Positions 4,680-11,475 of a stretch of DNA of 64,000 nt are shown here, piece after piece. Every line of letters begins with the position of its first letter. The stretch's first letter is position 1. Under the pieces are notes generated by a model that did not search any database, was not told where the DNA came from, and was given only the letters and a program-made list of their open reading frames with translations. A program made the translations under genes and the position numbers. This DNA comes from an uncultured Candidatus Saccharibacteria bacterium (GTDB lineage Bacteria; Patescibacteriota; Saccharimonadia; Saccharimonadales; Saccharimonadaceae). The stretch is taken from contig CAMVCL010000004.1 of NCBI GenBank assembly GCA_947165975.1, forward strand, positions 1-64,000, written 5' to 3'.

Positions 4680-6353
4680 ATGAGCGGAGAAAAGATTGGT
4701 AATTCTGAAGAATCAGTACCAACTATTAAAGGGGAATTAGGGGAGTGGAGTGAAGGAATTGATTTAGAAAAAAGGATGCCCAAGCCTTTTGATATTGATT
4801 TGAAAGATTTTTTTGATAGAGATGAATTAGAATTGGTATCATCTGGTAAATCCGAATCGGAAATTGCCGAATTAGAGAAAATCAATCATGAAGCGTTTTT
4901 GCATAATAATGCAGAATTTGAAAAGTTGAATGAACGGATTTTGCAGATAGCAGAGCTAGGGCCAGATGAAATTGATGCTTTATATCATGACAAAAATACT
5001 AGTGATTCCGATAAGTCCATAATAGTTTGCATTGAGGTTTCACGGATGTCAGATGAAGAATACGATGCGTGTTATGCTGAGGAACCGGAGTTACTTGGAA
5101 ATATTAGTAAGGTGGCAGGTTCTATTTATGGGTTTGGTATTGCGTTTTCGCGTAGTAAACTTGAGAGAGACGATGCTCCTTTTAGAATAATGACAGAGAG
5201 GGAACGTGAAGTTACTAAACCTGGTTCGGTTGAAGATATTGCATCCGCTGCGTTGGAATCTTATGTGATGAATCCAAATTACGACAATTATCGTATTTCG
5301 GATTATTCAGAATATCTCCATGGCATTATGCTAGATTGTACAAAAAGGACGATAGATGATAAAGACGGTACAATTGCGGAAGAGATTGATTTGGAAAAGT
5401 TTCAGGAACGAGTTATAGAGTCGATGAGTTGGGCGGTTTTAGATGCTTTTTCTGTACAAAAAGATTATACTGCTGCGGAATATGATGAATTACAAAAACG
5501 CGCTGTTAAAATGTTTGCTGATTATAATACGGGTCATCATTATATTACAGATGAAGAGTACTATGTTGGTCAAGTATCAGTTGTGGATGGGAATAATAAT
5601 CGCCGAATGGGCAGTATTTATGCATATGAACAAGATGATTTTTGGGATAATTACATGAAGAGCGTTCGAAGTAATAACGATGAGGTGTTTAGGTATAGCA
5701 GTGAGGTTGCTCGTGCAGAAATGGAACCGTGGGCGGATAAGATTGATCTAGAATATTTAGAATTTATCAATGATGACGATAGCTTGGATTGTGAAGAAAA
5801 GTATAGAAGAATTACGGCTTATATTCAAGGGGTTTTTGAAGTAGAAAACTTGGATGAAAATGGGCAAAGCCGTCCGATTAGCGTAAGATGGTTTCGTTTT
5901 GAGGAATCAAAAGTAAAAAAATTGATTAAAAAGGTATTGGGAATTTCTGAAGAAAATGAAGATTTACCGGAAGCATATGCCGGAGGGTATTATTCGGATT
6001 CGGAAAAGAGTATCTATTATATTAAACCGGAACAATCAAAAACGAAATTATCACTTGCTGAAATTGATACGGTTGTGCATGAAATGTGGCACGCTAAGCA
6101 ATTTGAGTTGATGAGAGTGCAACCTGGTACGAGAGTGAGTACCGATGATATAAAGGTACGTATGTACGAGAAGAATAGTTCGGCTTATAATGTACTCGAA
6201 CGTAGGCTAATGGAAAAAGGCAATGAAGCTTATTATATGCAAGTTTTGGAGCGGGAAGCGTATGCGATTGGGAGTATTATACAAGAACGTTTGGACAGGC
6301 GTCGCAATAAGACGCTCGGAGAAAAGATATTAAGTCTATTTAACTTTAAGTAA
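4680..6353 (+). CDS. Putative zinc metalloprotease (HExxH), otherwise unknown
   Basis: 557 residues, acidic, no signal peptide or membrane helix visible, so probably cytosolic. Near the C-terminus it has VVHEMWHAKQFE, which fits the HExxH zinc site, and about 60 residues later EREAYAIG, which could supply the third (glutamate) ligand as in gluzincins. The 450 residues before it match nothing I know and are rich in Asp, Glu and Tyr. The start is an ATG after TAGGAT plus 6 nt, consistent with the leaderless pattern of this genome. A toxin or a maturation protease are both possible; substrate unknown. Confidence 0.7.
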   Translation: MSGEKIGNSEESVPTIKGELGEWSEGIDLEKRMPKPFDIDLKDFFDRDELELVSSGKSESEIAELEKINHEAFLHNNAEFEKLNERILQIAELGPDEIDALYHDKNTSDSDKSIIVCIEVSRMSDEEYDACYAEEPELLGNISKVAGSIYGFGIAFSRSKLERDDAPFRIMTEREREVTKPGSVEDIASAALESYVMNPNYDNYRISDYSEYLHGIMLDCTKRTIDDKDGTIAEEIDLEKFQERVIESMSWAVLDAFSVQKDYTAAEYDELQKRAVKMFADYNTGHHYITDEEYYVGQVSVVDGNNNRRMGSIYAYEQDDFWDNYMKSVRSNNDEVFRYSSEVARAEMEPWADKIDLEYLEFINDDDSLDCEEKYRRITAYIQGVFEVENLDENGQSRPISVRWFRFEESKVKKLIKKVLGISEENEDLPEAYAGGYYSDSEKSIYYIKPEQSKTKLSLAEIDTVVHEMWHAKQFELMRVQPGTRVSTDDIKVRMYEKNSSAYNVLERRLMEKGNEAYYMQVLEREAYAIGSIIQERLDRRRNKTLGEKILSLFNFK

Positions 6354-9233: not shown

Positions 9234-11036
9234 ATGACGAAGAACAAAAACTGGATTATCGCTACTCTCGTATTCATGGGTTTCACTATGTTTACTGGGA
9301 GTTTTTTAATATCTACTAATGTCTCTGCTGACGATGTAGTAGACAATGTTAACATCAATGTACCCATATCTTGTTCTATAGAAGGTACTGGTATGACTTC
9401 ACATAATGCCAATATGATGAATGGTACCTATCAGAATAATATAGGTACTACTACCATGAAAGCCTTCTGTAATGATAACAATGGTTTTTCTATTTATGCG
9501 ATAGGCTATTCTGATGATACTTATGGTGAGACTCATTTAAGTAGCTCAGTAGACCCTACCTATAATATCGCTACAGGAACCGCTACATCAGGAGATGTAT
9601 CTAACTGGGCCATGAAACTAGCTACTAATACAAGTGCTACCTATGCCCTAACTCTAGATAATGGATTTGGTAGTTATAGTTCAGTACCAGCAACTTATAC
9701 TAAAGTCGCACATAGAAATAGTGGCACAGATACGGGTACTAGTGCCACTGGCTCAGAGCTAACTTCAACCTATGCAGCTTATATGAATCAAACTCAACCT
9801 GCTGGAACTTATACTGGACAAGTGAAATACACTTTAGTCCATCCAGCAAGTGAAGAGCCACTTCAACCACGTCCTGCTACTGCCGGATGCATTAATTACT
9901 TTGCTAATGCTAGTACAGCTATCGGTGAGATGGGTTGTCAATCTGCATCAAATAATGCTTCTGTCACGCTATGGGCTCCTAACTTCAAGCGTGATGGCTA
10001 TGGCTTCGCTGGTTGGAATGATAAATTTGATTATTCTGGTAACTACTATGGCCCTAATGAGACTATCACCGCTCCAGGTGACGTACAGACTAATGGCCTA
10101 AGTCTCTATGCAGTATGGATCAAATCTGCTGGTTCACTTCAAAACTGGAATGGATGTTCTAGTCTAGCAAGTGGTGCTACTACTGCCCTCACAGACGAAA
10201 GAGACAACAACACCTATGCTGTTGCTAAACTAGCTGATGGCAAATGCTGGATGATAGAAAACTTAAGACTAGCAGACAAAGATGCAGGTAATAACGACAT
10301 CAACTTATCCTCATCTAACACTCACAACCCATCTACTCCACTAAACAACTCTTGGTACTATAAGAACCAACAAGGTACTCTCACCACTTCTAATCATCTT
10401 TCTGTCACTTCAGATCCTACTTCTACTAGTCCAGATACTGCTTGGTGTCAGACAAGCTCATCTGATTGTATTGACCAATCCATGCTCGCTACCAATAACA
10501 CTACACTATTTACCACCAATACCGCCTCAAGCTACTCTGCAGCAAGTAATGTCTACAGCTACGGTAACTATTACAACTGGTATTCCGCTACAGCAGGCCA
10601 CGGTAAATATTCTAGTGGTTCAGGCTTTACTGCCCCAGGTGATATCTGTCCTGCAGGTTGGCATTTGCCACGAGGTGGTAATAAATCCCAAGAAGCTACC
10701 AACGAATTCTGGCAACTAATTGTTACAGGATTAAATGGAGGTACAAATCCAGCTAACTATGATAGCTCCACGATACCATATTACACAGGAACTACAGAAG
10801 GAACTCCAATCTCTAACGCCCTTAGATCATATCCTAATAACTTTGTTTATTCTGGGTTCGTGTATGATGGTTCGTCGGTCTACCGTCGTAATTCCAACGG
10901 GCTCTATTGGTCGTCTTCGGCGACCGATAGTAACAACGTCTACAACTTGAACTTATACAGTAGCATCGTCTACCCAGGTACGGACTACTACACCAAGTAC
11001 TACGGGGAGATGGTCCGGTGTATCGCTGGCGTCTAG
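9234..11036 (+). CDS. Secreted FISUMP / C-type-lectin-like surface protein, candidate DGR target
   Basis: 600 residues. A signal peptide (residues 1-32, ending STNVSA) is followed by a beta-rich Thr/Ser domain (about 35-200), then a short InlB-type repeat (KRDGYGFAGWND ... LSLYAVW, about 245-295). A Fibrobacter-succinogenes-major-paralogue (FISUMP) domain follows, with DNNTYAVAKLADGKCWMIENLRL, CPAGWHLPRGG, LYWSSS and the terminal MVRCIAGV. FISUMP domains are C-type-lectin-like. The last 35-50 codons (from about 10870) change character: TAC replaces TAT, and NNC codons (AAC, TAC, GTC, ATC, AGC, ACC, GAC) make up 17 of the 26 codons at 10929-11006. That is expected of a DGR variable region. An AAAGGA ribosome site sets the start. 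No reverse transcriptase or template repeat is in the window. Confidence 0.85.
   Translation: MTKNKNWIIATLVFMGFTMFTGSFLISTNVSADDVVDNVNINVPISCSIEGTGMTSHNANMMNGTYQNNIGTTTMKAFCNDNNGFSIYAIGYSDDTYGETHLSSSVDPTYNIATGTATSGDVSNWAMKLATNTSATYALTLDNGFGSYSSVPATYTKVAHRNSGTDTGTSATGSELTSTYAAYMNQTQPAGTYTGQVKYTLVHPASEEPLQPRPATAGCINYFANASTAIGEMGCQSASNNASVTLWAPNFKRDGYGFAGWNDKFDYSGNYYGPNETITAPGDVQTNGLSLYAVWIKSAGSLQNWNGCSSLASGATTALTDERDNNTYAVAKLADGKCWMIENLRLADKDAGNNDINLSSSNTHNPSTPLNNSWYYKNQQGTLTTSNHLSVTSDPTSTSPDTAWCQTSSSDCIDQSMLATNNTTLFTTNTASSYSAASNVYSYGNYYNWYSATAGHGKYSSGSGFTAPGDICPAGWHLPRGGNKSQEATNEFWQLIVTGLNGGTNPANYDSSTIPYYTGTTEGTPISNALRSYPNNFVYSGFVYDGSSVYRRNSNGLYWSSSATDSNNVYNLNLYSSIVYPGTDYYTKYYGEMVRCIAGV
10870..11036 (+). 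other. Candidate DGR variable repeat (3' end of the FISUMP gene)
   Basis: In this stretch Tyr is TAC 8 times and TAT once, the one TAT being in the conserved LYWSS core; upstream in the same gene TAT predominates. The varied codons can all be reached from AAC by changing its adenines. The stretch ends at the stop codon, as variable repeats usually do, and an inverted repeat follows 37 nt later. The boundary is approximate and no template copy is visible, so this is a hypothesis. Confidence 0.45.
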
Positions 11037-11475
11037 CCGTTTCTTTTCGTTTTCTTCAAAAGTCCCAGGAACACTTCAAGGATTTCGCTTCATGCGAAAT
11101 ACCTTGAAGTAGGAGCCAAAAATCACGAAAGACTTCCCACGACCACCTTTGGGACCGCTTGGGAGCGGGCCCAAGGGGAACAGATTTGCCGGCTTTGCCG
11201 GCAAATCCAAGTTTTCTGTACGCATATGAGACGCGATGCGACATAACCTTGGAATCCACTTGAAACGCAAATCCGAGAAACCTAAAAATCATGTCCTATC
11301 GCTGACCTGAATTATACAAGTTCCGTACCCACTTTTACTGCCTTATAAAAAAGTTAGGGATCACGATAGTATATATTGCTATACTTGCCTATACAAGGCA
11401 GCTCAAAAACCAAAAATACCCCTATAAATTGGGGTATTCTAGGCCCGGGATGACTCTCGGGAAGTGACAGTTTTA
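11037..11475. other. GC-rich structured gap after the FISUMP gene
   Basis: No convincing gene. It contains three hairpins: 11073-11110 (16-bp stem with one bulged base, 5-nt loop), 11158-11175 (CTTGGG/CCCAAG) and 11183-11207 (perfect 11-bp stem, loop TTT). An AT-rich stretch and the terminator of tRNA-Ile follow. A minus-strand ORF of up to 78 codons (11056-11292) exists, but it has no ribosome site or recognisable motif and I do not call it. The base composition differs clearly from the flanking DNA. Confidence 0.6.
11406..11438 (-). terminator. Terminator of tRNA-Ile
   Basis: On the minus strand AATACCCC and GGGGTATT form an 8-bp stem with an 8-nt loop, followed by five T's and further T-rich sequence. 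Confidence 0.75.

Follow-up and report, generated by a model that had tools for sequence, protein, structure and literature searches.

What has written the last codons of the FISUMP gene at positions 9234 to 11036, a gene that has neither a reverse transcriptase (RT) nor a template near it? The window analysed here is the whole 64,000-nucleotide stretch of DNA that contains this gene, namely positions 1-64,000 of the forward strand of contig CAMVCL010000004.1 from an uncultured Candidatus Saccharibacteria bacterium (GCA_947165975.1). The assembly of this genome comprises 882 kb in 31 contigs, is 99.5% complete and is not closed, and its closest named relatives are ruminant-gut Saccharibacteria MAGs. 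An original prediction, made from the letters of the window, read the end of the gene as a variable repeat (VR) and remote target of a diversity-generating retroelement (DGR), and stated that neither RT nor template lies inside the window, which is indeed the case. We place at roughly 0.92 the probability that the end of this gene is a DGR-written VR, remote from any DGR and one of at least seven.

Codon signature and layout of the target site

The target gene (9234-11036, forward strand) encodes a protein of 600 aa with an N-terminal hydrophobic segment, a List_Bact repeat and a C-terminal FISUMP (Fib_succ_major) domain, whose Pfam match (E 8e-7) falls under the cut-off and in which the VR extends to the stop codon. 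Knowledge of the family suggests that this domain may adopt a lectin-like, C-type-lectin-type fold with a host-binding role; its AlphaFold model (pLDDT 37) is unusable for fold assignment, and the FISUMP alignment had no match when searched against the PDB sequences. An NNC codon style begins at the last ~56 codons of the gene, and the predicted change of style at the gene end is borne out by counting: at positions 10929-11006, 17 of 26 codons end in C as against 21.8% across the 545 upstream codons (binomial P = 2.3e-6), and when the codons of the gene were shuffled 5000 times, a stretch of 26 codons with at least 17 ending in C arose in only 6 of the shuffles. The preference for TAC that had been noted at the end of the gene, with TAT dominating upstream, is equally plain, as tyrosine is TAC in 8 of 9 cases in the last 56 codons and upstream is TAC 9 times and TAT 25 times.

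Alignment to the template of a sister genome (L148, JAFQXV010000006.1) places the VR at about 10842-11066 on the forward strand, so that the predicted site, 10870-11036, stands while its limits prove too narrow. The VR core (10929-11006, forward strand) holds NNC codons where sister templates read AAY. A putative initiation-of-mutagenic-homing (IMH) tail lies 3′ of the stop codon (11037-11066, forward strand), ends AAAAGTCCC, and is also present in a paralogue on contig C2 and in the syntenic gene of a relative, G003, where it reads CAGAGTCCC. Directly 3′ of this tail is the downstream hairpin of the original prediction, a hairpin or cruciform at 11073-11110 (assigned to neither strand) with 16 pairs and a 5-nt loop, TTCAT (-15.4 kcal/mol, z = -5.7), which is not a terminator because it has no T run and which is distinct from a terminator-like hairpin at 11183-11207 on the forward strand. 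The paralogue on C2 has both the IMH-like tail and the 16-bp hairpin in common with the window site, and the order of tail and hairpin is the one found at the cis targets of two sister DGRs (L129 and L148). In the Bordetella phage a downstream hairpin is required for efficient homing, and by analogy with that work (Guo 2011, PMC3240598) the hairpin at the window site may serve the same role. At the sister cis targets the identity between template and target stops at a GAGCCC- or GAACCC-like motif, followed in many, not all, by a strong hairpin; the cis target of the DGR on contig C7, described below, has no hairpin of comparable strength.

The repeat ends of L126, L129, L148, L149 and L203 read GC.. 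in templates and GA.. in targets (AGCATCCT to AGAACCCT, CGCTCCTC to CGAGCCTC), a contrast across species that possibly corresponds to the IMH*/IMH distinction. A near-identical tail, GGGAGGATGGTGCGTTGCGTCGCTGG, is found at the ends of FISUMP genes on C5 (about 2395), C25, C1 (23.8k) and C21 (8.6k) and in L141 (about 5066-5099), and among the genes ending in it is one in G003 (G003:C2:13066) that does not resemble a VR further upstream. This tail is a candidate homing signal or recombination footprint.

Templates of sister genomes predict the variable columns

A template was inferred from the closest VR copies of the window's own genome by placing AAC wherever bases 1 and 2 vary, and was searched in 60 relatives. 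At 14 places in same-genus sister genomes it matched a sequence 54-207 bp from a DGR RT, the RTs having been located by a separate search, and the sequences at these 14 places are real AAC-rich templates. Real sister templates used as predictors remove the circularity of a self-inferred template. In the G001 template, 41 of 55 adenine columns are variable among four of the genome's own VRs as against 24 of 113 other columns (p = 3.5e-11), and in the L148 template the corresponding counts are 39 of 55 and 24 of 104 (p = 7e-9), these p-values being guides rather than exact probabilities, because the Fisher tests assume independent columns and the VR copies are related. Of 72 codons standing where the L148 template reads AAY, 66 end in C and 6 in T. 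Over 19 cassettes, 18 from sister genomes plus that of C7, 414 of 1109 adenines and 23 of 2989 other bases are changed between template and cis target, as summed by hand from the best template/target pair of each cassette. The reading of the gene end as a remote DGR target is thus supported by a self-inferred template that turns up beside sister DGR RTs, by sister templates that predict which columns vary and by the presence in the genome of a DGR RT with avd and template, described next.

The sister templates usually lie 3′ of the RT on the opposite strand, in convergent arrangement (L125-L135, L014, L148); that of L146 lies upstream of the RT on the same strand. One RT match, G031:C6:35041-36135, has an internal TAA in the six-frame search, and the ORF list shows an open 382-aa frame from nearby. 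Similar WSS..VR templates stand beside related RTs in Bacteroidales MAGs (L152, L157, L161; Alistipes/Bacteroidales) and in IMG/VR viral contigs (L209-L222). A phage-borne source for the window VR was rejected, as its exact tail GGGAGGATGGTGCGTTGCGTCGC is absent from IMG/VR and the viral matches of the template peptide are of another type (FSVRAV). Searching the inferred template peptide against 84,980 species genomes did not recover the exact template, the nearest being those of L148 and L146.

The resident DGR belongs to another template lineage

An intact DGR resides on contig C7, comprising a FISUMP target, a 306-aa accessory ORF, a 379-aa RT and a template 3′ of the RT on the opposite strand, and so the DGR-type RT and avd to which the original prediction pointed elsewhere in the genome do exist, paired with another template. 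The RT (C7:38341-39477) carries the motifs YVDD and IGNLTSQ, is the sole RT detected in the genome and has the DGR RT 8ub7 as its closest PDB match (E = 9e-34). In the adjoining 306-aa ORF the C-terminal ~110 residues match Avd (4dwl/8ub7; TM 0.80-0.83, Foldseek probability 1.00, E 0.008-0.05). Between the C7 template and its local target 35 of 66 adenines are changed and 0 of 227 other bases.

The accessory protein (G000:C7 37417-38337; L001:244-1164) is a fusion of an N-terminal alpha/beta domain of ~150 aa with the Avd-fold C-terminus, and similar fusion-type ORFs occur in 12 aligned cassettes; the N-terminal domain has a MutS-domain-I-like appearance for which neither Pfam nor a PDB sequence search gave confirmation. 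The element is flanked by two large serine recombinases (G000:C7 32331-35341).

Complete as it is, the C7 DGR does not explain the window site, because its template mismatches the window VR; as donor of that VR the template was ruled out by 19 of 24 mismatches falling outside adenines and by a differing 3′ end.

Sibling repeats and the syntenic gene of a relative

About 24 FISUMP gene ends were examined in the window's genome. Near-copies of the window VR are present on C5, C25, C2, C1, C21 and C17, every one at the end of a FISUMP gene, and the adenine-derived pattern extends to at least six further FISUMP genes, making at least seven such targets with the window gene included; paralogues of the same family without the repeat, which serve as an internal control, have no codon shift. 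The original prediction had envisaged a near-copy differing only at adenines, and here it failed in this assembly, where the near-copies are other VRs and the C7 template is of a different lineage. At its 3′ end the window VR shows several non-adenine differences from its siblings (GTCCGGTGTATC versus GTGCGTTGCGTC) and so was not freshly copied from a template common to them all. Neither a template matching the window VR nor a second RT was found in the 882-kb assembly with its unclosed contigs, and neither a cognate template nor a cognate RT was found in G003. This narrows what can be claimed about active targeting of the gene by a resident DGR, while the claim of a DGR origin is unaffected.

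The relative G003 (JAFQYG, goat duodenum) carries the target gene at the same genomic place, and its VR differs from the window VR at 32 of 55 adenine columns and 22 of 113 others. The two genes are 99% identical at 9234-9333 and 53-62% identical at 10634-10833, just 5′ of the VR, and this mosaic structure indicates that recombination between paralogues probably acts as well. Nine matches to the inferred template were found in G003, and no DGR RT. The contig with the syntenic gene terminates inside a second FISUMP gene beside serine recombinases like those at the C7 DGR; this pair (G003:C4 57219-60307; L140:7219-10307) adjoins the syntenic target gene, and such pairs possibly confer mobility on DGR cassettes.

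Discussion

We propose a model in which a DGR RT and its Avd-type partner would copy an adenine-rich template RNA, placing random bases opposite adenines, after which the cDNA would take the target's place at the IMH tail and hairpin that follow the stop codon. AAC codons would become NNC, and a putatively lectin-like surface protein would vary at ~20 residues close to its C-terminus. We infer from the sequence evidence mutagenic homing, ligand binding and a cognate cassette, past or present, that is absent from the assembly.

As to where this cassette is, we give an even chance to its still being in the cell, as FISUMP, Avd fusion, RT and template, and to the assembly having missed it as repeated FISUMP/VR sequence breaks contigs, which would refine the DGR origin by making the site an active remote target. 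Contigs C2, C9, C21, C1 and C6 do break within or beside FISUMP genes, as does the G003 contig beside its recombinase pair, and an intact tail and hairpin at the window site point to recent function; the 99.5% completeness of the assembly, the many sister genomes with assembled cassettes and the lack of a cognate cassette in both this genome and G003 speak against a missed cassette. The non-adenine differences that the window VR has accumulated, together with the absence of the cassette from two assemblies, favour loss, and it is quite plausible, if somewhat short of an even bet, that these are fossil or transferred repeats whose cognate DGR is gone and whose variable C-termini now change by no more than drift and homologous recombination between FISUMP paralogues, the DGR origin being kept. 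Several such VRs in G003 without a DGR RT, the mosaic target gene and the description of targets without RT and template in Treponema denticola (PMC4891356) agree with loss, yet the copies are still open reading frames with the NNC pattern, and the tail and hairpin have survived. Both the cassette in a gap and the lost cassette have precedents (PMC10907252 and PMC4891356, respectively).

Diversification of the window gene in trans by the resident C7 DGR is very improbable: this DGR has the sole RT of the genome and a local FISUMP target with a near-identical N-terminus, but its template aligns with the window VR over 58 bases only, with the mismatches and unlike 3′ ends given above. We attach next to no weight to an explanation without any DGR, by ordinary positive selection on the lectin surface and a local shift in codon usage. 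The ligand face is the expected place of variable sites in such folds, but selection of this kind leaves unexplained why randomisation affects bases 1 and 2 of the codons but spares the third, which remains C or T, why DNA templates of other species predict the columns and why same-fold paralogues have no such pattern. A combined scheme, which we consider unlikely, would have a DGR, resident or on a mobile recombinase element, write variants in one place and recombination among ~25 FISUMP paralogues spread the variable C-termini to remote genes; if true, a lineage would retain a large set of variants whether or not it had a template of its own.

Under our preferred reading, that of a remote DGR-written VR, at least seven members of a family of ~24 probable surface proteins carry remote DGR-written variable ends, of a kind that goes unseen when a survey covers only targets beside an RT. 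A life attached to other bacteria is generally assumed for Saccharibacteria, and these loci may bear on how they bind changing hosts. They also permit direct tests of remote-target activity, of template supply and of paralogue recombination added to DGR mutagenesis.

Comparison with known systems

CPR bacteria are already known to carry DGRs, and both remote targets and targets lacking a cassette have been described; the window VR adds a member. It resembles DGR clade 2 of Roux et al. 2021, which is restricted to Patescibacteria/CPR (PMC8144416), in its Patescibacterial host, adenine mutagenesis and C-terminal VR in a target that is putatively of lectin type, the resident RT being likened to that clade by host, mutagenesis and target type rather than by tree; unlike the targets of that survey, which was blind to remote ones, the window VR has no adjoining RT or template. 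The TvpA-type targets of Treponema denticola are likewise several and remote, are of the C-type-lectin type that the window target may share, and persist in isolates without RT and template (PMC4891356), but have an FGE-sulfatase-type domain in place of FISUMP and a cassette that other isolates of that species are known to carry. The DGR loci of Thiohalocapsa PB-PSB1 share targets remote from RT and template and VRs for which the rest of the assembly offers no perfect template, a lack that structural variants later accounted for (PMC10907252); they differ in their conflict-system sensors, transposon-broken cassettes and read-level diversification, whereas the window VR is known from assembled sequence. 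Finally, the mtd site of Bordetella phage BPP-1 has the same layout, with a VR at the gene end, an IMH and a hairpin or cruciform directly downstream (PMC3240598), although with an 8-bp stem, a GRNA-type loop and a known cognate template, where the window site has a 16-bp stem and the loop TTCAT.
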